Below are positions 37,213 to 53,362 of a DNA stretch of 53,864 nucleotides, one piece after another. This stretch comes from Oscillospiraceae bacterium. GTDB lineage: Bacteria; Bacillota; Clostridia; Oscillospirales; Ruminococcaceae. The stretch lies in the NCBI GenBank assembly GCA_017396665.1, contig JAFQLH010000066.1, positions 1 to 53,864 of the forward strand. Reading direction: 5' to 3'. The notes under the pieces were generated by a model. It was given only the letters and a program-made list of their open reading frames with translations. It did no database searches and was not told the DNA's origin. Position numbers and translations under genes: made by a program. Positions within the stretch are counted from its first letter, which is position 1; the number at the start of each line of letters is the position of its first letter.

Positions 37213-37260
37213 TATTTCTCATCCTTCTAAAAAATATGTGTATTTCTACTAAAAAAGCAC

Positions 37261-37289
37261 TTTACAAAAGTAAAAAAATCGTATATAAT
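37261..37289 (+). promoter_or_regulatory. SigA promoter of the apbE-rnf operon
   Basis: TTTACA (37261-37266), 17-nt spacer, TATAAT (37284-37289). A leader of about 95 nt precedes apbE. No terminator is seen between apbE and rnfC. Confidence 0.65.
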
Positions 37290-37391
37290 AATCTTTATAA
37301 ATGGAATACAGGTGTAAATGAATACAACGTAAGAATATTGTATCACAATTTTCTGATAAATTCAACTGTCCCGGAAAGGACTGTGAGATTT

Positions 37392-38396
37392 TTGATAAGT
37401 AAATCAAAAAGCATTGCCGTAATCGTAATCCTGCTTGCCGTACTCGTCGTGCTCGCCCTCTTGTATAGAGGGAATAAAGCAGAGGAGCAGTTTGAGCAGG
37501 GAACAACAATGGCTATGGATACAGTTTTCATGGTAAAGGTTGCAGGCGATAAACCCGACGGGTATATTGAGCTTGTAAATAAGCTCGATGCTGCCCTGGA
37601 TGTTTACGACAAAGGCTCTGAAATATATAAGCTTAATGCACAGCAAAATGCAAACGCTTCGGATGTCCTGCTTGACGCAGTAAAATCCTCACTGCAAGCG
37701 GAAGAAAAGCTGTCATCGGTAAGTATAACAGCAGGCGGACTTATAAAACTGTGGGATGTAAACGGCGATAATCCTACTGTGCCGGATGAAGACGACATAC
37801 AAAAGGAGCTGTCCTTTGTAGGAAAAGATAAGATAACTTTAAGCGGCAACAGTATTACGCTTATGGAAGGAACAAAGCTTAATCTGGGCTGCTGTGCGAA
37901 AGGCTATGCCTGTGACATTATTGAGAAAAAGCTTAGTGAAAATAACGTAAGCTGTGCAATCGTGACGTTTGGCTCGTCTACACTTTTGTATGGAAAAAAG
38001 CCCGACGGCGAGAGATTTGTAACAGCAGTTACAAATCCGTTTGAACCGTCTGAAACACTGCTGACAGTGAAAACAGATGAGTGCTTTATCTCAACCTCAG
38101 GCGGCTATGAAAGATTTTTTGAACAAAACGGAAAAACCTATAGCCATATATTCGACCTTGAAACAGGCTATCCTGCCGATACCGATATTATGTCAGTTAC
38201 CGTTATATGCGATAGCGGAATAATGAGCGATATGCTCTCAACAGAGCTTTATATCGGCGGAACTGAGATGGTGAAGGAGTATCTTGCATCGGACGAATAT
38301 ATGATAATTGCTATTGATAAGAACAAGAATATCTATGCCTCTGATAAGCTCTCAGAGAGCATAACACTTAAGGATAAAAGCTTCACACTTAAATAA
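37392..38396 (+). CDS. apbE: FAD:protein FMN transferase (ApbE), membrane-anchored
   Basis: A 334-residue flavin transferase that attaches FMN covalently to Thr of RnfG, RnfD and similar proteins, using FAD as donor, outside the cytoplasmic membrane. An N-terminal membrane anchor (about 7-25) is followed by the ApbE domain with GTTMAMDTVF, SVSITAGGLIKLWD, NLGCCAKGYACDII and the Mg-binding THIFD-like YSHIFDLETGYPAD. Start: TTG 37392, about 11 nt after AAAGGA; GTG 37383 is in frame but only 2 nt from the SD. It sits 28 nt before rnfC, and RnfG/RnfD carry the expected Thr sites, so these are its likely substrates. Confidence 0.9.
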   Translation: MISKSKSIAVIVILLAVLVVLALLYRGNKAEEQFEQGTTMAMDTVFMVKVAGDKPDGYIELVNKLDAALDVYDKGSEIYKLNAQQNANASDVLLDAVKSSLQAEEKLSSVSITAGGLIKLWDVNGDNPTVPDEDDIQKELSFVGKDKITLSGNSITLMEGTKLNLGCCAKGYACDIIEKKLSENNVSCAIVTFGSSTLLYGKKPDGERFVTAVTNPFEPSETLLTVKTDECFISTSGGYERFFEQNGKTYSHIFDLETGYPADTDIMSVTVICDSGIMSDMLSTELYIGGTEMVKEYLASDEYMIIAIDKNKNIYASDKLSESITLKDKSFTLK

Positions 38397-38423
38397 CGCA
38401 ACTTAATGATTGGAGGAATATAT

Positions 38424-39710
38424 ATGCCATTCTTCGGAATACACCTTCCGCATAAAAAGGGAACAGCCCAGTCAGCGACAGTAAAGCTGCCACTGCCTGA
38501 AGTTGTGAAAATCCCTATGTCACAGCATATGGGAACACCCTGCGAGCCGACAGTTAAGGTCGGAGATACAGTAACGGTAGGGCAGAAGATAGGCGATAGT
38601 ACAGCTTTTATGTCAACACCTGTCCACTCATCAGTTTCAGGTACAGTAAAAGCTATCGGGGATTACCTCCTCGCAAGCGGAAAGGTCTGCAAGGCGGTCG
38701 TAATTGAAACAGACGGAAACCAGACTGTTTCAGAAGATGTAAAGCCTCCGCAGGTCGATGACCTCAAAAGCTTTATAGCAGCTATAAAGGAAAGCGGCTG
38801 CTGCGGACTTGGCGGTGCAGGCTTCCCGACACATATCAAGCTCAATGTCGATATTAAGGATAAGCCGATAGATTCGCTTGTAATAAATGCCGCAGAGTGT
38901 GAGCCTTACATAACAAGCGACTGCAGAGAGATTATCGAAAGACCTGACGATGTCATCGACGGCATTAAGCAGGTTATGAAATATCTCGAAATAGAAAACG
39001 CATACATATGTATCGAAAAGAATAAGCCCGAAGCAATAAAGCTTATGAAGGAGAAAACAGCATCCGAGGGTAATATAAAAGTCGTACCGCTCAGAGCATC
39101 TTACCCGCAGGGTGCAGAAAAGGTCGTCGCATATTCCGCAACCGGCAGAATAGTAGGCGAGGGCGAGCTTCCTTCGGCAAAGGGAATAATCGTTCTCAAT
39201 GTCTCAACAGCAGGCTTTATCTCACGTTATCTTAAAACAGGAATGCCGCTTGTCGAGAAAAGATTAACACTCGACGGAGATGCGTTCAGAACACCTTGTA
39301 ACGTAATGGCTCTCGTAGGAACACCCGTAAGTAAGCTTATTAAGTTTGCCGACGGCGCCGAAGGTGCAATCGCAAAGCTTATTGCAGGCGGCCCTATGAT
39401 GGGTATGTGCCTCTATGATTTTGAAACACCTGTAACAAAAACCAACAACGCAATCTTAGGCTTTACTGAAAAGCTTGCAGTCAGAAAGGAAGAACAAACA
39501 GCCTGTATCCATTGCGGACGCTGTGTGTCAGCCTGCCCGATGAAGCTTATGCCTAATGAAATCGCTAAGGCGTATGAGGCAAAGGATGCCGATATGCTCA
39601 GAAAGCTAAAGCTCAATCTGTGTATGAATTGCGGAAGCTGTAGCTATGTATGTCCGGCAAGAAGAAATGTCGCAGAAACAAACCAGCTCGCAAAGGGACT
39701 TATACGATAA
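38424..39710 (+). CDS. rnfC: Rnf complex subunit C
   Basis: 428-residue peripheral subunit that takes electrons between NAD+ and the iron-sulfur chain of the Rnf ferredoxin:NAD+ oxidoreductase. Parts: an N-terminal RnfC barrel, an NADH/FMN-binding domain (GLGGAGFPTHIK, AAECEPYITSD), a SLBB domain, and two [4Fe-4S] motifs at C361/C364/C367/C371 and C400/C403/C406/C410. ATG 38424 follows GGAGG. First Rnf gene, order C-D-G-E-A-B as in Clostridium. Confidence 0.96.
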   Translation: MPFFGIHLPHKKGTAQSATVKLPLPEVVKIPMSQHMGTPCEPTVKVGDTVTVGQKIGDSTAFMSTPVHSSVSGTVKAIGDYLLASGKVCKAVVIETDGNQTVSEDVKPPQVDDLKSFIAAIKESGCCGLGGAGFPTHIKLNVDIKDKPIDSLVINAAECEPYITSDCREIIERPDDVIDGIKQVMKYLEIENAYICIEKNKPEAIKLMKEKTASEGNIKVVPLRASYPQGAEKVVAYSATGRIVGEGELPSAKGIIVLNVSTAGFISRYLKTGMPLVEKRLTLDGDAFRTPCNVMALVGTPVSKLIKFADGAEGAIAKLIAGGPMMGMCLYDFETPVTKTNNAILGFTEKLAVRKEEQTACIHCGRCVSACPMKLMPNEIAKAYEAKDADMLRKLKLNLCMNCGSCSYVCPARRNVAETNQLAKGLIR

Positions 39711-39729
39711 AGGAAAGGAGTAACGCTTA

Positions 39730-40674
39730 TTGCGTGTGAACAGTATGGAAAAGCTTTTAGTATCTCCTTCACCGCACATCAGGAATGATGTATCAACTGC
39801 GAAGATTATGGGCCACGTTATGATAGGTCTGCTTCCTGCAGTAATTGCGGCAACAGTAATATTCGGCGGAAAAGCTCTTATGCTCATAGGCTTCTGTATA
39901 GCCGTAGCCGTTATTCTCGAACGTATCTCAGGCGCTATAATGAAACGCCCCGATACAACAGGCGATTTGTCAGCAGCAGTAACAGGTCTGATATTTGCAC
40001 TTAACCTCCCGCCAACGCTACCTTTCTGGATAGCGCTTATAGGTCTGTTCTTTGCAATTGTCGTGACAAAAATGCTCTTTGGCGGACTTGGCTGTAATTT
40101 TGCAAACCCTGCAATCGTCGGAAGAATTGTCATTACGCTCTCGTTTACATCAGCTATGACAACATGGTCTGAGCCATTTTCCTCGGACGTTACAACAATG
40201 GCAACTCCGCTTGCGTCACGCTCAGCAGACTATTTTGATATGTTCATCGGAACAACAAGCGGCTGTATCGGTGAAACAAGTGCACTCGCACTGATTTTCG
40301 GATTTGTGTATCTCTGTGCAGTGAAGGTTATAACCCCTTCAACACCTGTCGCATATGTCGGAACCGTTGCACTGTTTTCCTGGATAGCAGGCGTCGACCC
40401 TCTGTACCAGGTGCTCGCAGGCGGACTTCTGCTCGGCGCAATCTTTATGGCAACTGACTATGTAACAACCCCTGTAACCCAGACAGGTAAAATAATCTTC
40501 GGTATCGGCTGCGGTATAATTACCTGCGTAATAAGACTCTATGGCTCGTACCCTGAAGGCGTGTCCTTCTCAATTCTTATAATGAACATCGTAACTCCGT
40601 ATATTGATATGCTTTGCCGTACAAAGCCGGTCGGTGCTAAGAAGCCGGCAAAACCACAGAAGGAGGGGATGTAG
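39730..40674 (+). CDS. rnfD: Rnf complex subunit D
   Basis: 314-residue integral membrane subunit (about nine to ten segments) that carries covalent FMN and forms part of the ion channel. The flavinylation candidate is T159 in TTMATPL, the place of the modified Thr in other RnfD proteins. The start is TTG 39730, 9 nt after AAAGGAG; ATG 39745 is the alternative but 24 nt from the SD. Ends 1 nt before rnfG. Confidence 0.93.
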   Translation: MRVNSMEKLLVSPSPHIRNDVSTAKIMGHVMIGLLPAVIAATVIFGGKALMLIGFCIAVAVILERISGAIMKRPDTTGDLSAAVTGLIFALNLPPTLPFWIALIGLFFAIVVTKMLFGGLGCNFANPAIVGRIVITLSFTSAMTTWSEPFSSDVTTMATPLASRSADYFDMFIGTTSGCIGETSALALIFGFVYLCAVKVITPSTPVAYVGTVALFSWIAGVDPLYQVLAGGLLLGAIFMATDYVTTPVTQTGKIIFGIGCGIITCVIRLYGSYPEGVSFSILIMNIVTPYIDMLCRTKPVGAKKPAKPQKEGM

Positions 40675-40675
40675 T

Positions 40676-41221
40676 ATGAAAGATAAAATACTCCCGTCAC
40701 TCGTTTTGTGTATAATCTGTGCGGTCGTCTGCGGTCTGCTCGTAGGTGCATATGAGCTTACATATGTCGATACAACAGGCGTTATGACCGATGAGCTTAC
40801 AAAGGGCTGCGACAGTATCTATGCGGATACCGAGTTTGAAATTCTTAAAGACGAAAACGGCGAAGTCGTTACTTTCGACGGTGTTACAACAGTAATTGTC
40901 CCGACAGGTGACGAAAAGGTCTGTGTGTTTGAAGTCATGGCAGACGGATACAGCAAGAACGGAATCCATGTCCTTGTCGGCGTGAACGAAGACCTCACGG
41001 TAGCAGGTGTGTATTTCCTCTCCTGCGGCGAAACCCCGGGTGTCGGTACAAAAACACAGGACAAAGGCTACCTCGCAAAATATGAAGGAATAACGGCTGA
41101 CGAAATTGATAAAATCGATAATCTCACAGGCGCTACATATTCCTCTAAGGGATTCAAAAAAGCCGTAAAGTGTGCTATCGAATGCTATGAGCAGAATAAG
41201 GAGGCGATTTTTAATGAGTAA
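40676..41221 (+). CDS. rnfG: Rnf complex subunit G (flavoprotein)
   Basis: 181-residue subunit with one N-terminal membrane segment (about 8-27) and an extracytoplasmic FMN-binding domain. The ApbE target motif is LTGATYSS with probable flavinylated T154. CGETPGVGTK is conserved. ATG 40676 is 6-8 nt after AAGGAGGGG. Overlaps rnfE by 8 nt. Confidence 0.95.
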   Translation: MKDKILPSLVLCIICAVVCGLLVGAYELTYVDTTGVMTDELTKGCDSIYADTEFEILKDENGEVVTFDGVTTVIVPTGDEKVCVFEVMADGYSKNGIHVLVGVNEDLTVAGVYFLSCGETPGVGTKTQDKGYLAKYEGITADEIDKIDNLTGATYSSKGFKKAVKCAIECYEQNKEAIFNE

Positions 41222-41921
41222 TTCTTCCGCAAAAGGCTCAATGTTTGAGCTGACAAAGGGTATCATTAAAGAAAACCCCGTATTGGTAGGTCTCCTCGGT
41301 ATGTGTCCTACACTCGCTGTTACAAATCAGGCGATAAACGGACTGGGTATGGGCGTCGCTACAACGTTCGTGCTTATCTGCTCGAATATCGTTATCTCGC
41401 TTCTGAAGAAGGTTATCCCTTCAACAGTAAGACTTCCAAGCTTTATCGTAATTATCGCAGGCTTCGTTACTCTTATCGAGTTTTTGCTCAAGTGCTATCT
41501 GCCGACAATCTATTCAGCACTCGGAATATTCTTGCCGCTTATTACAGTAAACTGTATAATCCTTGGCAGAGCAGAAGCGTTTGCCTCAAAGAATAAGGTC
41601 GTAGCTTCTGCCCTCGACGGACTTGGAATGGGTATCGGCTTTACTATCGCACTGTTTGCAATGGGAAGTATAAGAGAAATCCTCGGTGCAGGCAGCTTTA
41701 TGGGAATGAAGATTCCTGTGCTCTGCGATAACTCAATGGTTATGTTCATAATGCCGGCAGGCGGATTCTTCGTGCTCGGCTGTATAATAGCACTTGTCAA
41801 TAAGCTTGCAAATAAAAAGCCACCTGCAGAGCTCGGCTGTTCAGGCTGTCCTCATGCAGATAGCTGCAAGAATATCGGTGCTTGTGAAAATAAAGAAGCT
41901 ACACAGGGAGGTGCACAGTAA
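41214..41921 (+). CDS. rnfE: Rnf complex subunit E
   Basis: 235-residue membrane subunit with about six segments, homologous to RnfA and NqrD, forming the ion-translocating core with RnfA and RnfD. Conserved NPVLVGLLGMCPTLAVT and LPLITVNCIILGRAEAFA are visible. The C-terminus carries an extra Cys-rich tail (CSGCPHADSCKNIGACENK), a less usual feature that may be a small metal site. Overlaps rnfG by 8 nt and rnfA by 1 nt. Confidence 0.94.
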   Translation: MSNSSAKGSMFELTKGIIKENPVLVGLLGMCPTLAVTNQAINGLGMGVATTFVLICSNIVISLLKKVIPSTVRLPSFIVIIAGFVTLIEFLLKCYLPTIYSALGIFLPLITVNCIILGRAEAFASKNKVVASALDGLGMGIGFTIALFAMGSIREILGAGSFMGMKIPVLCDNSMVMFIMPAGGFFVLGCIIALVNKLANKKPPAELGCSGCPHADSCKNIGACENKEATQGGAQ

Positions 41922-42493
41922 TGGAATATATCCTCATACTCGTGGGAACTGTCCTCGTGAATAATATCGTGCTCTCTCAGTTTATGGGCATCTGTGCATT
42001 CCTCGGAGTTTCAAAGCAGATGAAAAGCTCTCTCGGAATGGGCGCAGCAGTTATCTTCGTAATGGTCTGCGCAACGCTGTGTACATACCCGATTTATATG
42101 CTTCTCGAGAAGTTTGAAATAACCTATCTCAAAACTGTAGCGTTCATTCTCGTAATCGCCCTGTTTGTACAGATGGTAGAAATGATTCTCAAAAAGGTTA
42201 TGCCACCGCTCTATAAAGCTCTCGGCATCTATCTCCCGCTCATTACAACAAACTGTGCAGTTTTAGGTGTAACAATCACAAATGTGGACGAAAGCTATAA
42301 CCTCGCACAGTCAGTAGTAAACGCACTCGGAACAGGTATTGGATTTACTCTCGCACTCCTGCTGTTTTCGGGTGTGCGTTCAAAAATCAACGACTCAAAA
42401 ATCCCCGAAACCTTCCGTGGTGTCCCTGCAACACTTATCGCCGCTTCAATCGTCTCCTTGAGCTTTATGGGCTTTTCGGGACTTATCGGTTAG
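41921..42493 (+). CDS. rnfA: Rnf complex subunit A
   Basis: 190-residue six-segment membrane subunit. Signature parts: NNIVLSQFMGICAFLGVS and LPLITTNCAVLGV, each holding one of the cysteines that ligate the intramembrane [2Fe-2S] cluster shared with RnfE. The start codon overlaps the rnfE stop (TAATG). Normal length. Confidence 0.96.
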   Translation: MEYILILVGTVLVNNIVLSQFMGICAFLGVSKQMKSSLGMGAAVIFVMVCATLCTYPIYMLLEKFEITYLKTVAFILVIALFVQMVEMILKKVMPPLYKALGIYLPLITTNCAVLGVTITNVDESYNLAQSVVNALGTGIGFTLALLLFSGVRSKINDSKIPETFRGVPATLIAASIVSLSFMGFSGLIG

Positions 42494-42509
42494 AACAGGA
42501 GGCAGATAA

Positions 42510-43298
42510 ATGGACTATATAATTCCTATCTTGATATTTGCCGCATTGGGCATAGCCGCAGGCGTGTTGCTTACAATCGTGTCTAAGGTGTTTGCAGTAA
42601 AAACAGACGAAAGACTCGAAGCTCTGCAGGAAGCACTTCCGCAGATTAACTGTGGCTCGTGCGGTTTCTCAGGCTGTAATGCGTACGCTGAAGCAATCCT
42701 TGAAGGAAAGGCAGAGCCTAACCTCTGTAAGCCGGGCGGAAACGAATCAGCTCAGAAAATTGCGGAAATCCTCGGCGTCGGAGTAGGCGAAGTAGAACAG
42801 CAGGTCGCATTTGTTCGTTGCCTCGGAAACTGTAATGTTACAACACATAAGTATACCTTTACAGGTTCGCATAGCTGTCGTTCATCAAATAACTATTACA
42901 ACGGCAGTAAGGTGTGTACAAGCGGTTGCCTCGGCTACGGTGACTGTGTCGCAGTCTGTCCTTCCAATGCCATCAGCATCATAGACGGCGTAGCAGTCGT
43001 AAATCAGAACATCTGTACAGGCTGTGGACTGTGTGCAAAAACCTGTCCGAATGCCCTGATAGCAATCAGAAACAGAAGCCAGCAGTACGAAGTAGGTTGT
43101 CGCTCAACTGCAATAGGAAAGGTGACAAGGAGCGTCTGCTCAGTAGGCTGTATAGGCTGTAAGATGTGCGAAAAAAAATGTCCGAGCGGTGCTATAACCG
43201 TTGAAGATAACTTCGCAAGAATCGACTACTCCAAGTGTACAAACTGCGGAGAATGTGCCAAGGCTTGTAAAATCGGAGCAATCAAGAAAATCGTATAA
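42510..43298 (+). CDS. rnfB: Rnf complex subunit B (ferredoxin-type)
   Basis: 262-residue iron-sulfur subunit that accepts electrons from reduced ferredoxin. N-terminal membrane anchor (about 5-27), a Fe-S domain (CGSCGFSGCNAYAEAIL...C), and ferredoxin-like 4Fe-4S motifs CTGCGLCAKTC, CIGCKMCEKKC and CTNCGECAKAC. Such cysteine-rich length is typical of clostridial RnfB. SD AGGAGG, ATG 42510. Last gene, followed by a strong terminator. Confidence 0.96.
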   Translation: MDYIIPILIFAALGIAAGVLLTIVSKVFAVKTDERLEALQEALPQINCGSCGFSGCNAYAEAILEGKAEPNLCKPGGNESAQKIAEILGVGVGEVEQQVAFVRCLGNCNVTTHKYTFTGSHSCRSSNNYYNGSKVCTSGCLGYGDCVAVCPSNAISIIDGVAVVNQNICTGCGLCAKTCPNALIAIRNRSQQYEVGCRSTAIGKVTRSVCSVGCIGCKMCEKKCPSGAITVEDNFARIDYSKCTNCGECAKACKIGAIKKIV

Positions 43299-43348: not shown

Positions 43349-45163
43349 TTAGTTAAAGCCTTCAATAGTTCCTGCGTTGTATTGCAGAATCATAAGTGCA
43401 TCTACAACATCTACAAAGCCGTCTGCGTTTACGTCACCCGCAAGTAGCTGAGTAGGGGATAGAGTAGCGTTTCCTGCCGAGTATTGCATGATGATAAGCG
43501 TGTCAACCGTGTCAATGTATCCGTCATCATTAATATCGCCATAGGTGTAGTGCATCGTGTCACCCTCACGCTTCACAGTTATCGTGTAATCACGCGTAGC
43601 ACCCGACGGAGCAGTTACAGTAATCGTAAATATGTTGTTGCCCGTCTTGAGTGCATATGCGTCAGTACCTGATACCTTAGCGTATGGTGTGTTTGGTGTA
43701 GCTGAAATAACAACCGAGCTTACGTTTGAAGGAACTGTCGCAGTGTAGCTCATTGTGTATCTGTTAAAGGAAGGTGTCAGCTCGTAGCCGTTTACAGAAA
43801 CAGAGCTTAAGAAGTTGTTGTTTGTTCCTGTAGATGTCGGCTTTACGCAAGCCGTCGCAGGCATGTTGTCGTATACAGGAATGGTGAATACAAGCGCAGA
43901 GCTGAGTATAGCATCGTTGTATGCCTTCTTCATGTGGGAAGCTTCAGAAGCAGCCGCCTGAATGTTTGTCATGTACTGATGACTGAAAAATCCGTTCCCA
44001 CCGTCAACCATGTCAAACTTCTGTAAGTACAGAGTGTCCTGACCACGGTTTATGTAGCTTCTTCCTATGAACGTCGAACCGCCGATAAGAGCCTTACGCT
44101 GATTGGTCCATGGAAGAGAGTAGGTTGAATTTGTTGTAGAAGCGTACTTTGCACCCATCTGCTGTGCAGTAAGTGTCGAAGTCGCATAAGCCTGTATGTT
44201 GAAGAAGTTGTAGTATCCTTTAAATCCGGGAACAGTACCCGTCGCAAGAGGTGTTCCGTATACACCCATCTCTTGCCTTGCCCTTGAAGCCAGATGATAT
44301 GGGCTCACGCCTGTCGCAATCGCAGCATCCATAAAGGTCTGTGCGTAGGAGTAGGTAACGCCCGTGTCGGGTGTAACATAATTTCCATCCATAAACGTTC
44401 CCGAAAGAATTGCCTTTACACCCTCAAGTGTGTGAACATTCGGGTCGTAGGATAACTGCTCAAACATAAATATCGAGGTATCGTTGAGGAAGTTTCTCGG
44501 GTCCATGTAGTAAGCGATTATCTGTTCAGATGCCGCAACCCAGCTAGGTCCGTCAAGTCCGTACCATTTTCCTGTGTTCCAGTTGTATGCACCCTTCTCC
44601 ATTGACTTCCAGGACGCAAGACTTGAAAATGAAACAAGACTGATACCAACCTGTGACTCAGCTTCCAGAGCAACATTCCAGTCAATGCCGAGCTTGTGTG
44701 CCTTGAATACCCAGTTAGGATGAGCTGCGTGAATTTCTCTCAGCGAAGCCTTGTAGCTCTCAGGGAAGCCCTGTGCATCAAGATATTCCTCGAAGTCCAT
44801 ATCCTCATCATAGGTAGGCTCCTGAACATCAGGAACGGTAACCTCTCCCGTAACCTCAACATAAGACGAAGAAATATATCCTTCTGTTCCGTTGTAGTTT
44901 ATCTTGTACCATACCTTGCCGTCAGCAGCAGTAGATTGTCCGATGATTGTAACCGACGTTCCGTCGGAAAGATAACCAAGCGTAGCATAGGTAGTTCCCG
45001 CACCGCTTCTTACTCTCAGCGATGAAGCAACAACAGTTCCGATGGAAAGGGAAACAGCAGAGGCTTCGTGATTTTGGACAACAAAATCGGCGCCATATGT
45101 AAAACACATAACGGCGCTGGCAAGTATAGCAGTAATTTTCGTCAGTCTCTTAGAAAATTTCAT
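43349..45163 (-). CDS. Secreted peptidoglycan glucosaminidase with SH3b and type I dockerin
   Basis: A 604-residue exported protein. Order: signal peptide (1 to about 36), SH3b domain (about 38-103), a GH73-like endo-beta-N-acetylglucosaminidase domain (about 125-430, with probable catalytic Glu in HLASRARQEMG), a cadherin-like beta-sandwich (about 445-535), and a C-terminal dockerin (about 538-604) with two Ca-binding repeats GDINDDGYIDTVD and GDVNADGFVDVVD. The enzyme would cut the glycan strands of peptidoglycan. The dockerin means it can be held by a cohesin; a cohesin protein is encoded divergently next door. A role on cell-wall substrate, rather than plant polysaccharide, sets it apart from usual dockerin enzymes. 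Confidence 0.88.
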   Translation of the reverse strand: MKFSKRLTKITAILASAVMCFTYGADFVVQNHEASAVSLSIGTVVASSLRVRSGAGTTYATLGYLSDGTSVTIIGQSTAADGKVWYKINYNGTEGYISSSYVEVTGEVTVPDVQEPTYDEDMDFEEYLDAQGFPESYKASLREIHAAHPNWVFKAHKLGIDWNVALEAESQVGISLVSFSSLASWKSMEKGAYNWNTGKWYGLDGPSWVAASEQIIAYYMDPRNFLNDTSIFMFEQLSYDPNVHTLEGVKAILSGTFMDGNYVTPDTGVTYSYAQTFMDAAIATGVSPYHLASRARQEMGVYGTPLATGTVPGFKGYYNFFNIQAYATSTLTAQQMGAKYASTTNSTYSLPWTNQRKALIGGSTFIGRSYINRGQDTLYLQKFDMVDGGNGFFSHQYMTNIQAAASEASHMKKAYNDAILSSALVFTIPVYDNMPATACVKPTSTGTNNNFLSSVSVNGYELTPSFNRYTMSYTATVPSNVSSVVISATPNTPYAKVSGTDAYALKTGNNIFTITVTAPSGATRDYTITVKREGDTMHYTYGDINDDGYIDTVDTLIIMQYSAGNATLSPTQLLAGDVNADGFVDVVDALMILQYNAGTIEGFN

Positions 45164-45242
45164 TTTGCCTTCCTCTTAGTTTCTCCACGGTAATTTATCT
45201 GTCTGTTTTGTCTGCCTTTTTCGGCATAATACCTTAGTATAT

Positions 45243-45272
45243 ATTATAAACAGATGTAAAGCCCGTTGTCAA
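45243..45272 (-). promoter_or_regulatory. SigA promoter of the dockerin glucosaminidase gene
   Basis: On the minus strand TTGACA (45272-45267), 18-nt spacer, TATAAT (45248-45243), about 80 nt before the start codon. Confidence 0.65.
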
Positions 45273-45292
45273 GCGAAAAATCGGGCTTTTTT
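45258..45292 (+). terminator. Hairpin with T run in the divergent region
   Basis: AAAGCCCG (45258-45265) pairs with CGGGCTTT (45282-45289) across a 16-nt loop, followed by a T run. It overlaps the minus-strand promoter and may block antisense entry. No plus-strand gene ends here, so its role is unclear. Confidence 0.4.
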
Positions 45293-45485
45293 CACGGTTT
45301 TCGAGTTCACGGAAAATTTACAAATCTCATTTTTTTAGTGAAAATCCCTAAGCTTTGTGTCGATTAAGAAAACAAGGCTCAATATCTAGTGCCAAAAGGG
45401 GATTGAAAATGGCAAAACAACCCGAAAATACGCCCTTTTGTTCAAATTGTAGAAATATAAAATAATTTTTATAGCAAAATGTCTA
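45293..45485. other. Intergenic stretch between dockerin and cohesin genes
   Basis: AT-rich, nothing clearly functional. A possible 18-codon ORF (45409-45465, MAKQPENTPFCSNCRNIK) has an SD-like AAAAGGGG but no other support. Confidence 0.3.
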
Positions 45486-45515
45486 TTGACATTGTTTTTT
45501 GTAATATGTTATACT
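45486..45515 (+). promoter_or_regulatory. SigA promoter of the cohesin protein gene
   Basis: TTGACA (45486-45491), 18-nt spacer, TATACT (45510-45515), giving a leader of about 110 nt. Confidence 0.7.
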
Positions 45516-45630
45516 AAATCTACAAAACGAATTTTATAAATATAAAGAGAGAAAAATATATAAAACAAAAGAGAGTTTCCCGCCGTCTTCGGCTTTTTCA
45601 GAAGCGGTGACAGAGAACAAGGAGGCAAAA

Positions 45631-47250
45631 ATGAATATTGGATTTAAGAAGGCTGTAATCTCAATCGGAACAGCCGTTGTTATGCTGACCTCTGTGTTTG
45701 CAGGGTCGGTAGTCGCTTCGTCTACAAACGAAATTACTGTAAGCCCGACTGTATCAACAGTTAAGCCGGGTGAAAGCTTTGACGTGTCTGTCGGCTTTGA
45801 AGCAGGTGACAACGGTGCATCGGGATTTCAGCTGTTTTTGCATTATGACGAAGAATTGCTCGACGTGTATGTTCCTACAACCTCTGAGCTTAACGGAAAA
45901 TATGATTCCCAGAGCAGATTTTCAGTTATCACAAACTATACATACGGCGAAGGCGTTGTAAAAATCGTCGGTGCCAATATGAGCGCTAATAATATTACCG
46001 TCGATACCGCACTCAGCCTCGTAACATTCTCCGCAAAGGATGATGCGTCAGGAACAGCTAATGTATGGATTTCAGTAGAAAAGCTCGTGTATAATGACGA
46101 CGGCTCAATGGTAAGTACACCGTATAGTGCTCCGACATCCTCTAATCCTGTAAAGATTAAGATTGCTGCACCTACAACAACAACCACAACAACAAAGGCG
46201 ACAACAACTCCTACTACAACCACTACTACAACGCCTGTAACAACTACTACAACAACACCTTCAGAAACAACTACCACCACAACAACTCCTTCGGAAACAA
46301 CAACCACAACAACCGAAGCTACCAAAGCACCTACTACTTCTGCTACTACAACAGAAGCTACTACAACCACTACAACAAAGGCGACAACAACTCCTACTAC
46401 AACCACTACCACAACGCCTGTAACAACTACTACAACAACACCTTCAGAAACAACTACCACAACCACTACTGAGGCTACTACAACTGAAGCAACCACAACC
46501 GAGGAAGTAACTGAAGCTACAACAACAGAAGCTGCAACCTCTGAAACAACAACTCAGCAGACTGAAGAACAGCCTGAGGTTACTACTACAACAACAGAGA
46601 ACACCGAAACAGAAGAGCCTTCCGAGGACGCAGTCGTAATTACCGACGAAGACCCGCTCTATGAGCTTTCACAGGGTGCTGAGGAGTACGACGAAACTCT
46701 CGTTGACCCATACTGCATCAACCTCAAGGACTATGTTTCTGATTTTGATAAGAGCTACAACGTCAAGGTTTCTATCACATCTGACGGATATGCAACAGGC
46801 TCTATCAGTATGAATGACGTTGAAGGCAACTGGACAAAGTATTACCAGAATACAGACAGCGAGGTCTGGGAAGCTACAAACATTACACTCGATAAGAACG
46901 ATGCACTCGTGTTTGTACAGCTTTTCTACCTCAAAGAAAACTCAACCTTTACAATCGAAAAGATTGAAATCACACCTTATATGGCAGAAGCTTCAGATGA
47001 CGAAGTAACAGAGGAAGAAATCGTTGATACAAATGTTACAATCCCTGAAGAAGATGTCGAAGAAGGCGTTACAAAGGAAGACGTAGAGCAGGCAGTACAG
47101 GATATGCCTGAGAACGATAAGAACCCTCAGACCTCTGACAGCTCAAAGAGCGTTATGGCAGTGGGACTCGTAGTTCTTGAGCTTATCGGTATGGCAGCAA
47201 CACTCTTTATCTTCGGCAAGAAGAAGGAAGTAGAAGAGCCTGCTGAATAA
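45631..47250 (+). CDS. Sortase-anchored cohesin-domain protein with Thr-rich linker
   Basis: A 539-residue surface protein: signal peptide (1 to about 30), a cohesin domain (about 32-170, VKPGESFDVSVGFEAG and ASGFQLFLHYDEELLDVY), a Thr-rich linker (about 182-330) built partly from a duplicated 98-bp segment, a beta-rich domain of unknown type (about 345-450), an acidic stretch, then a cell-wall sorting signal: NPQTS (498-502), membrane segment (about 507-528) and basic tail KKK. The first domain would bind a dockerin; the second would be fixed to peptidoglycan by sortase. ATG 45631 is 5 nt after AAGGAGG. It lies divergent from a dockerin peptidoglycan hydrolase, its likely partner. Confidence 0.82.
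   Translation: MNIGFKKAVISIGTAVVMLTSVFAGSVVASSTNEITVSPTVSTVKPGESFDVSVGFEAGDNGASGFQLFLHYDEELLDVYVPTTSELNGKYDSQSRFSVITNYTYGEGVVKIVGANMSANNITVDTALSLVTFSAKDDASGTANVWISVEKLVYNDDGSMVSTPYSAPTSSNPVKIKIAAPTTTTTTTKATTTPTTTTTTTPVTTTTTTPSETTTTTTTPSETTTTTTEATKAPTTSATTTEATTTTTTKATTTPTTTTTTTPVTTTTTTPSETTTTTTTEATTTEATTTEEVTEATTTEAATSETTTQQTEEQPEVTTTTTENTETEEPSEDAVVITDEDPLYELSQGAEEYDETLVDPYCINLKDYVSDFDKSYNVKVSITSDGYATGSISMNDVEGNWTKYYQNTDSEVWEATNITLDKNDALVFVQLFYLKENSTFTIEKIEITPYMAEASDDEVTEEEIVDTNVTIPEEDVEEGVTKEDVEQAVQDMPENDKNPQTSDSSKSVMAVGLVVLELIGMAATLFIFGKKKEVEEPAE
46180..46460 (+). repeat. Direct duplication within the Thr-rich linker
   Basis: Segments 46180-46277 and 46363-46460 (98 bp, 183-bp offset, only two differences seen) encode the same Thr-rich peptide. 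The offset is 61 codons, so the frame is kept. Confidence 0.8.
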
Positions 47251-47309: not shown

Positions 47310-47966
47310 ATGCAGAATAACGAAAAAAGAAATTATAGTATCGAGCTACAGAAGCTTATAGACAAGCAGGGAACAGTAAAACCAAAGCTCCTGCTCCATG
47401 CCTGCTGTGCCCCATGTTCGTCATATGTTTTAGAGTACATTTCAAAGCATTTTGATATAACAATGCTCTACTATAACCCGAATATCACACCCGAAAGTGA
47501 GTATACAAAACGACTCGACGAGCTTAAAAGATTGCTTAAAACAGCAAGCTTCTGTGAAGGCGTAAGGCTGATGAACTGTAAGTATGACCCCGAGAGCTTC
47601 TTTGAAATCGCAAAAGGCCTCGAAGAACTCCCCGAAGGAAACGAGCGTTGCTTCAAGTGTTATATGCTCAGACTTGAGCTTACAGCACAGACCGCTAAAG
47701 AAAACGGCTTTGACTACTTCACAACAACGCTGTCTATCTCACCTTATAAGAATTCAAAAAAGCTCGCCGAGATTTCTCTTGTGCTCGAAGAAAAGTATGG
47801 CGTAAAATGGCTGCCGAGCGACTTCAAAAAGAAGGGCGGATATAAACGCTCAATAGAGCTCTCAAAGGAGTTTGACCTGTATAGACAGGACTATTGCGGA
47901 TGCGTCTTTTCAAAGCTTGAAGCGGAAAGGAAAAGGATGAATAATGATAGTTCGACTTGCGAATAA
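47310..47966 (+). CDS. queH: Epoxyqueuosine reductase QueH
   Basis: 218 residues, the non-cobalamin enzyme for the last step of queuosine synthesis in tRNA. Cysteines that bind [4Fe-4S] and the nearby metal are visible: CCAPC (32-36), RCFKCYMLRL and the C-terminal YCGCVFS. YYNPNITPESEY is conserved. Length fits the family. SD AAGGTGAT precedes ATG 47310. The frame overlaps the next gene by 23 nt. Confidence 0.93.
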   Translation: MQNNEKRNYSIELQKLIDKQGTVKPKLLLHACCAPCSSYVLEYISKHFDITMLYYNPNITPESEYTKRLDELKRLLKTASFCEGVRLMNCKYDPESFFEIAKGLEELPEGNERCFKCYMLRLELTAQTAKENGFDYFTTTLSISPYKNSKKLAEISLVLEEKYGVKWLPSDFKKKGGYKRSIELSKEFDLYRQDYCGCVFSKLEAERKRMNNDSSTCE

Positions 47967-52663: not shown

Positions 52664-53341
52664 TTATGAGCAGAACCTGTGCCCGCCAATGGTTTTTATA
52701 ATAGGTCTCGAGTGAATAAACCTGTCATTTGTCTTTGCAGGGTTATAATAGTATATCGCACCGCCCGAAGGGTCCCATCCGTTGAGTGCATCTCTCGCAG
52801 CATTATATGCCGAATCTGAAATGGGCTGATTGAATTGTCCGTCGGTTATTGCCGTAAATGCTCCCTTCTGATAAATTACTCCCGATAAAGTGTCAGGAAA
52901 GGAAGGGTGTTCTATCCTGTTCAGTACAACAGCGCCAACAGCAACCTGCCCCTCGTAAGGCTCACCTCTTGCCTCAGCAGAGATAATTCTCGCAAGTAAA
53001 TATACATTGGATTCAGTAGCCGCAGGAACACTTCCGATGCTTATGCCCATCGCCGCAAGTGTCTGCGGACCCGCAATACCTGTCTGACTGATGCCCTTGA
53101 GCTTCTGAAATTTCTTTACCGCAGCCGTCGTCTCTTCACCGTAATATCCCGTCACATCACCGTTATATAATCCCCAGTCAATGAGGAACTGCTGGATTGC
53201 CCTGACCTCAGCACCCCTTGAACCCATCTGAGATACGGAGGGTGTTGCCTTGCTGCTGTCATTTATAATGTATAAAGCAGAGAAAAACATCACACAGCCT
53301 GAAAGTATAAGTGCAAATGTAAGCACCCTTTGTCTTGTCAT
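52664..53341 (-). CDS. sleB: Spore cortex-lytic enzyme SleB
   Basis: 225 residues. N-terminal membrane/signal segment (about 7-25), a peptidoglycan-binding domain (about 40-95, GSRGAEVRAIQQFLIDWGLYNG), and a hydrolase-2 domain (about 113-225, LLARIISAEARGEPYEGQVAVGAVVLNR) whose Glu in SAEARGE is the likely catalytic residue. It degrades the muramic-delta-lactam cortex during germination. ypeB, the usual partner after sleB in Bacillus, is absent downstream. Start: ATG 53341 with GAGGTG 6 nt upstream. A sigma-G-like promoter precedes it. Confidence 0.9.
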   Translation of the reverse strand: MTRQRVLTFALILSGCVMFFSALYIINDSSKATPSVSQMGSRGAEVRAIQQFLIDWGLYNGDVTGYYGEETTAAVKKFQKLKGISQTGIAGPQTLAAMGISIGSVPAATESNVYLLARIISAEARGEPYEGQVAVGAVVLNRIEHPSFPDTLSGVIYQKGAFTAITDGQFNQPISDSAYNAARDALNGWDPSGGAIYYYNPAKTNDRFIHSRPIIKTIGGHRFCS

Positions 53342-53362
53342 ATTAAACACCTCACTTGTGGT

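Follow-up and report, generated by a model that had tools for sequence, protein, structure and literature searches.

A conserved gene pair that probably docks a GH73-type autolysin on a neighbouring cohesin surface protein

In a 53,864-nucleotide stretch of DNA from an Oscillospiraceae bacterium (assembly GCA_017396665.1, contig JAFQLH010000066.1; the whole stretch is called the window below), a gene for a GH73-type glucosaminidase that ends in a dockerin lies divergent to a gene for a surface protein that carries a single cohesin. The pair is conserved, and it is probably a docking pair. We consider it likely that the neighbouring cohesin protein provides dedicated, one-to-one docking of the GH73 autolysin on the cell's own surface. 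The strongest argument for this partnership is given by genomes in which each protein is the only detectable candidate partner of the other. Genomes, loci and contigs are denoted below by G, L and C numbers, respectively, the genome of the window being G000.

Domain composition of the two proteins

Following a signal-like N-terminal stretch recognized by eye, the 604-residue hydrolase consists of an SH3_3 domain, a GH73-type region, a Cadherin-like domain and a dockerin, in that order (Table 1). The GH73 family PF01832 is absent from the Pfam scan of this protein, even up to E 10. There is a local match to the NCBIfam SagB glucosaminidase model (2e-14), which is far under that model's whole-protein cut-off, and a phmmer search against solved structures matched AtlE, Atl and SagB-type proteins, the best at 4e-11. 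The phmmer alignment to AtlE and to the Glu-to-Ala chain 4pi8 covers residues 261–417. It places E298 in a column that holds Glu in AtlE and Ala in 4pi8, and the residue is invariant across 22 aligned sequences, the window protein included. By its match to solved GH73 domains and the position of the predicted catalytic Glu, the protein is a GH73-type glucosaminidase. Its C-terminal module is a type I dockerin: there are two calcium-loop repeats, both canonical (D-x-N-x-D-G-x-x-D-x-x-D), and PF00404 is over its cut-off.

In the divergently encoded protein, the cohesin family PF00963 was found at 41–42 bits, above the cut-off, both genome-wide and in a scan of the isolated domain; it was not listed in the Pfam scan of the whole Thr-rich protein. 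The AlphaFold model of this protein has low overall confidence (predicted local distance difference test, pLDDT, 50; predicted template modelling score, pTM, 0.34), and the 12 best PDB matches of this low-confidence model in a Foldseek search are cohesin-bearing chains (best 5e-7, 2jh2). A Pfam match over cut-off together with a cohesin fold, the latter being that of a model with pLDDT 50, identifies the domain as a cohesin. The assignment made in the first-pass annotation, which was based on the letters alone, is thus upheld by both profile and fold searches. That annotation had described a secreted SH3–GH73–cadherin-like–dockerin gene divergent to a cohesin, Thr-linker, NPQTS and membrane-segment gene, and this arrangement was confirmed, with an intergenic gap of 467 bp rather than the noted 470, since the start of the cohesin gene is better placed at ATG 45631, behind AGGAGG.

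A second conserved beta domain follows the Thr-rich linker. No Pfam family scored over cut-off for this domain, and its PDB profile matches, mostly to proteasome subunits, are at E 0.1 or worse. It has two conserved Trp residues and is present in the scanned divergent-type relatives except L089, which is cut before the domain. The C-terminus has the features of a putative sortase anchor, namely NPQTS, a predicted helix, and KKK before an acidic tail, and there is one class B sortase in the genome. Sortase anchoring as a universal trait of these proteins was not confirmed, as the motif is unmatched in some relatives. The gene of this sortase, the sole one found, is followed (L079, 4609–8365) by genes for Thr-linker wall-hydrolase-like and SpoIID-like proteins that, by eye, have similar TTT linkers.

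Conservation of the divergent pair

A single-sequence search of 61 genomes identified the cohesin in nine of the ten genomes of the genus, counting that of the window, and gave no match in the other 51. In each of the eight genus-mates that have the cohesin, its gene lies divergent to that of the GH73-dockerin protein; neither gene was found in the tenth genus genome, G009. With a GH73-dockerin profile, 37 matches were retrieved from 396 genomes of the family at E≤1e-30, seven in the genus and 30 outside it. Fourteen of these 30 have both the dockerin and a divergent cohesin, and three have the dockerin with no cohesin there (L086, and the R. albus contigs L092 and L096). Another nine have neither dockerin nor cohesin neighbour (L099 and L101–L108, L102 being cut at the C-terminus); here L100–L108 were scanned with the divergent-type cohesin profile, which misses part of the tandem type described below, and the next genes were judged unlike by eye. 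The remaining four are limited by contig ends (L091, L098, L100 and L109), and L109 has the divergent cohesin with a GH73 gene cut before the dockerin position. The divergent pair is also present in R. bicirculans 80/3. The possibility that the adjacency is found only in this strain, which the first-pass annotation had named as a test of its proposal, is rejected by the presence of the pair in nine of ten genus genomes and in other Ruminococcus-like genera, far outside the strain.

Genomes with a single candidate partner

The genome of the window is a metagenome-assembled genome that is 86.8% complete, in which we find one Pfam cohesin, two dockerins and one sortase, of class B. Membership of a cellulosome, which would call for a scaffoldin with several cohesins and for dockerin enzymes that degrade fibre, is rejected on this inventory of one cohesin and two dockerins at that completeness. 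One dockerin is that of the GH73 protein, and the other is on an SH3 protein on contig C33 for which the N-terminus is cut and no enzyme family was called. By eye, this second protein (L004, 3092–3967; cut by the contig end) has a C39/papain-like region, then SH3 and the dockerin.

R. bicirculans 80/3 has a single Pfam dockerin and a single above-cut-off cohesin genome-wide, and these are the adjoining genes of the pair; one extra cohesin match, at 21.6 bits, is below cut-off. Each of G429, G438, G445 and G450 has a single dockerin and, at E≤0.01, a single cohesin match (below the Pfam cut-off in G429 and G438), encoded by neighbours 131–185 bp apart. In G451, the single dockerin is adjoined by one of two cohesins, and G442 has one dockerin and zero Pfam cohesin matches. 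We regard the single-partner genomes as the strongest argument that the two proteins would be partners.

Tandem and missing neighbours in wider relatives

To the divergent pairs, a contig scan of the best 80 of 586 relatives, with classes assigned by script, adds a second gene order. L110–L126 are partly from the same genomes as the family-search set, and the two sets are not summed. Among these 80, the dockerin is accompanied by a divergent cohesin in 12 cases and by a tandem cohesin-like neighbour in 25, it has no neighbour in six (five R. albus-type loci and L128), and in one there is no room to judge. GH73 genes with no dockerin have a tandem cohesin-like neighbour in 32 cases, no neighbour in one, and no room in three. 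In total, 69 of the 80 have a cohesin-like neighbour.

The tandem neighbours, from records named Lachnospiraceae, Pseudoflavonifractor, Diplocloster and others, have a cohesin-like domain, then a Cadherin-like domain and mostly a membrane segment. Pfam places the cohesin over cut-off in four of the nine given, and the L091 neighbour has no cohesin match. Profiles of the first domain, made from 15 loci with and 15 without a dockerin, have cohesins as their best PDB matches, the tandem-neighbour profile including the Cadherin-like part besides the first domain. A tandem neighbour matching the Pfam cohesin at E≤0.01 was found at 18 of 25 loci with a dockerin versus 2 of 16 without (p 3e-4); the 18 leave out L127, where the cohesin match is on another contig than GH73, the contig was mostly judged by coordinates at the other loci, and both dockerin-less matches are below the Pfam cut-off. 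A strict rule, by which the dockerin would be present if and only if there is a cohesin neighbour, is broken by the dockerin-less tandem loci and by R. albus, and holds at the GH25 locus described below where this is visible. We take these patterns to mean that GH73 and the membrane protein would be old partners, with the dockerin as the high-affinity form of their link in some lineages.

A second dockerin-bearing wall hydrolase in the genus

Seven of the ten genus genomes encode a GH25 protein with a dockerin; GH25 was assigned by Pfam in three members of the genus and from profile matches or alignments elsewhere. In six of the seven, a gene for a cohesin protein with a C-terminal membrane segment is located 15–52 bp downstream (at L075 the spacing, 35 bp, is from coordinates; the other five were measured directly), and in G005 the GH25-dockerin and cohesin genes are on separate contigs. 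The genome of the window and G006 have a GH25 orthologue with the same downstream neighbour and about five FN3-like repeats in place of the dockerin (L190, 26–3571; L191, 2883–6719), and no cohesin gene was found at these two GH25 loci. G004 has no GH25 of this kind at E≤1e-60. Dockerin and cohesin at the GH25 locus are jointly present or jointly absent in all eight genomes where both are visible.

Across the ten genus genomes there are 23 dockerins: nine on GH73, seven on GH25, five on leucine-rich repeat (LRR)-type proteins, one on a C39-like protein and one on a protein with a cohesin-like stretch. Thus 16 of the 23 are on GH73 or GH25; the terms LRR, FN3-like and C39-like are readings of the sequence by eye, with no family call. 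The LRR-type proteins belong to a third kind of cohesin/dockerin set in the genus (L067, 2029–12948; L074, 2157–10285), in which two or three large LRR-like dockerin proteins, encoded behind an integrase-like gene, are followed by a single-cohesin NPTTG protein. The protein with the cohesin-like stretch (L069, 4667–7435; 922 residues) combines this stretch with a dockerin, both following a weak prenyltransferase-toroid match, and could self-assemble.

WalR-type boxes upstream of the hydrolase gene

Exact matches to the WalR consensus TGTWAH-N5-TGTWAH, as given in the part of PMC9210968 consulted, are found upstream of GH73 at 12 of 76 loci, all 12 being among the 17 Ruminococcus loci, and in 6 of 153 control upstream regions (Fisher p 1e-10 versus all controls, 2e-5 versus low-GC controls). 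The 76 are those of the 80 upstream regions that are long enough; the four dropped include L124, which is still counted in the 17, and without it the proportion is 12 of 16. Spacers other than 5 give sites in only 0–2 of the 76. The 12 positive loci are not independent events, since they are related, four of them being R. albus-type. The controls include regions upstream of divergently oriented cohesin genes and so share part of their DNA with the GH73 upstream regions, which works against enrichment. This comparison with real upstream regions supersedes an initial test against mononucleotide shuffles, in which 14 sites were found in 21 regions with 0.24 expected. Among the eight genus-mates, the site is exact in one (L018), and there are one-mismatch sites otherwise, with TGTAAATTTTTTGTGAA, at one mismatch, present in several.

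Features and surroundings of the pair

Table 1. Features of the GH73-dockerin and cohesin genes in the window
Feature	Position	Strand	Evidence
GH73-type glucosaminidase-dockerin protein, 604 residues	43349..45163	minus	
SH3_3 domain, residues 47-103	44855..45025	minus	Pfam 2e-14
GH73-type catalytic region, about residues 121-440	43844..44803	minus	outer bounds from profile matches without the dockerin
Predicted catalytic E298	44270-44272	minus	alignment to AtlE
Cadherin-like beta sandwich, residues 452-533	43565..43810	minus	Pfam 4.6e-10
Two-repeat type I dockerin (Dockerin_1, residues 541-595)	43379..43543	minus	Pfam 45.8 bits, E 1e-10
Degenerate WalR-type box TGTAAATTTTCCGTGAA	45306..45322	minus	2 mismatches to TGTWAH-N5-TGTWAH
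Sigma-70-like promoter TTGACA-N18-TATACT upstream of the cohesin gene	45486..45515	plus	by eye, unscored; similar in L018, L020
Cohesin surface protein, 539 residues from ATG 45631 (547 from GTG 45607)	45631..47250	plus	
Cohesin domain	45739..46137	plus	Pfam 41.3 bits; PDB profile search; Foldseek
Thr-rich linker	46174..46626	plus	model pLDDT mostly under 50
Second conserved beta domain, residues 349-461	46651..46989	plus	model pLDDT about 58-80
NPQTS sorting-type motif	47122..47136	plus	sequence
C-terminal membrane segment, then KKK and acidic tail	47146..47214	plus	model helix (residues 514-536); sequence

On the hydrolase side, ApbE-like and Rnf complex genes, recognized by eye, lie directly beside the GH73 gene (37236–43298), as they do in L018 and L020; the pair sits in varying surroundings, since these genes are not beside it in the other genus loci read. 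On the other side, queH (47310–47966) comes after the cohesin gene, and the same is seen by eye in all eight genus-mate loci. A gene for a PG_binding_1/Hydrolase_2 (SleB-like) wall hydrolase is located at 52664–53350 in the window and close to the pair in seven of the eight genus-mate loci.

Discussion

In the mechanism that we infer, the secreted GH73 glucosaminidase would be retained on the producing cell by calcium-dependent binding of its C-terminal dockerin to the one cohesin that the adjacent surface protein carries. The cohesin protein would itself be held by its membrane segment, perhaps also by the class B sortase, and its Thr linker would give reach into the wall. The docked enzyme may then serve to remodel peptidoglycan as cells grow or separate, and it would probably belong to the WalRK cell-wall regulon. 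The first-pass annotation had likewise placed the wall hydrolase at the cell's own surface, and this part of its proposal stands with indirect support, from the single-partner genomes, the GH25 pair and the WalR-type boxes. Two further elements of that proposal fared less well. A role in spore or mother-cell release gained no support, the sole hint being a gene next to the GH25 locus that we take to be spoVT without a family call, and the analysis gave no evidence that the enzyme is held at a fixed distance from the wall.

Several observations weigh against dedicated docking. The sorting-motif pattern is unmatched in L082 (where it reads SPQTG), L087 and L090. At the GH25 locus, the cohesin is weak by Pfam, being over cut-off in two of seven genomes (G007 and G008), below it in G001 and G005, and unmatched in G002, G003 and G009, where the assignment is alignment-based. 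The genus also contains the LRR-type dockerin/cohesin sets, with LRR-type dockerins in G005 and G008. The five R. albus-type loci and L128 keep the dockerin with no neighbour, and two R. albus genomes have 75 and 62 dockerins. As the four R. albus-type loci with an exact WalR-type site have no cohesin neighbour, the box speaks for the enzyme and not for the pair, and the window itself carries only a degenerate site. Finally, the 32 loci among the best 80 at which a cohesin-like neighbour is paired with a dockerin-less GH73 have to be explained. In 27 of the 35 searched genomes with a dockerin-less GH73 (the 32 and the three with no room), there is no Pfam dockerin at all, and the neighbour would thus have a dockerin-independent role there, as no dockerin is detectable for it to receive.

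These dockerin-less loci are the basis of an alternative to which we give some, though limited, credence: that the main role of the neighbour is to partner or regulate GH73 by way of its cohesin-like or Cadherin-like domains, the dockerin being a lineage-specific addition that strengthens the contact. Their tandem neighbours have the same succession of cohesin-like domain, Cadherin-like domain and membrane segment, and the first-domain profile from 15 of them finds PDB cohesins at 3e-6, which agrees with such a role. Set against it are the GH25 locus, where dockerin and cohesin come or go together, and the fact that the neighbours of dockerin-bearing enzymes resemble the Pfam cohesin family more closely. 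This alternative is compatible with a docking pair in Ruminococcus, and the two are not mutually exclusive.

It is unlikely, in our view, that the pair serves an offensive "lyticome", a surface display of docked enzymes (GH73 and GH25) that would lyse bacteria nearby or digest their wall debris. Surface display would fit this equally well, and both the concept and a lysozyme activity in the R. champanellensis cellulosome appear in the consulted part of PMC6403190. However, the WalR-type boxes point toward own-wall regulation, dockerin-less SH3-GH73-cadherin enzymes are common in relatives, mostly with a similar membrane neighbour, and one enzyme per socket does not make a multi-enzyme attack complex. 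A broader evolutionary proposal, that docking of autolysins on cohesin membrane proteins is an old, Clostridia-wide device that predates the cellulosome, with fibre complexes having re-used the socket, is one that we hold to be decidedly improbable. Adjacency without partnership, with the cohesin binding other dockerin proteins such as the SH3/dockerin protein on contig C33, has in its favour that second dockerin and the LRR-type dockerins in G005 and G008, but is very improbable given that no other Pfam dockerin was found in R. bicirculans, G429, G438, G445 or G450. In the genome of the window, the GH73 and C33 dockerins could share one socket.

The use of cohesins and dockerins outside fibre degradation, which the first-pass annotation had pointed to, is right, yet it is already in print for dockerin-bearing lysozymes and for a mucin system. 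The portion of PMC6403190 consulted, which proposes the "lyticome", cites wall hydrolases that contain dockerins as well as a lysozyme activity found in the R. champanellensis cellulosome. In Table 3 of PMC4081043, three R. albus strains are listed with a single dockerin-bearing GH73 apiece, and one strain with a single dockerin-bearing GH25; the consulted section of PMC12997984 describes the mucinolysomes of Limousia, a cohesin/dockerin system that is not directed at plant fibre. Term searches of PMC5814915, PMC11557425, PMC2930009 and PMC12484212 returned no mention of GH73, and the text returned from PMC5814915 names GH25 solely as a lysozyme family. Full-text searches of the cohesin/dockerin literature, of a scope that left most subscription papers outside, found no earlier description of a GH73 autolysin with an adjacent cohesin dedicated to it. 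Within the parts of these sources covered, dockerin-bearing wall hydrolases and the lyticome idea are thus already published, and what appears to be new is the dedicated pair of one enzyme and one socket.

Cohesin and dockerin have mostly been studied as the glue of the cellulosome, and here, in genomes that have just one detectable dockerin and one cohesin, the two are encoded by neighbouring genes, one on an autolysin and the other on a surface anchor. If the docking proposed here is true, it would give a function to the orphan cohesins of gut bacteria that have no cellulosome, and would represent a new way of localizing a dangerous enzyme. It would also offer a minimal one-to-one pair from nature on which binding could be studied, and a testable starting point on the origin of cellulosome modules.

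Among known systems, ScaE of R. flavefaciens has one cohesin, a sortase signal and surface anchoring, as described in the consulted text of PMC2930009; the cohesin protein of the window is similar in having one cohesin and, putatively, the other two features. ScaE, however, receives a scaffoldin with fibre enzymes, whereas the sole candidate partner here is, in several genomes, one wall hydrolase. The dockerin lysozyme of R. champanellensis (PMC6403190, in the part consulted) is also a wall hydrolase with a dockerin, but it joins a cellulosome, while here a cohesin encoded next to the hydrolase would be dedicated to it, in genomes that have one or only a few cohesins. The R. albus dockerin-GH73 proteins in Table 3 of PMC4081043 are probably of the same protein family. 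In their case no adjacent cohesin was found at the R. albus loci. The cohesin-like module of C. perfringens NagJ (GH84), which is on the enzyme itself and provides the best Foldseek match, 2jh2, and the Limousia mucinolysome are further instances of cohesin/dockerin modules outside plant fibre; these systems, in contrast, act on host glycans, and the mucinolysome cohesins are on multi-cohesin scaffoldins. Finally, the staphylococcal glucosaminidases Atl, AtlE and SagB share the catalytic domain and the position of the catalytic Glu with the window protein, and are held on the wall by means other than a dockerin.

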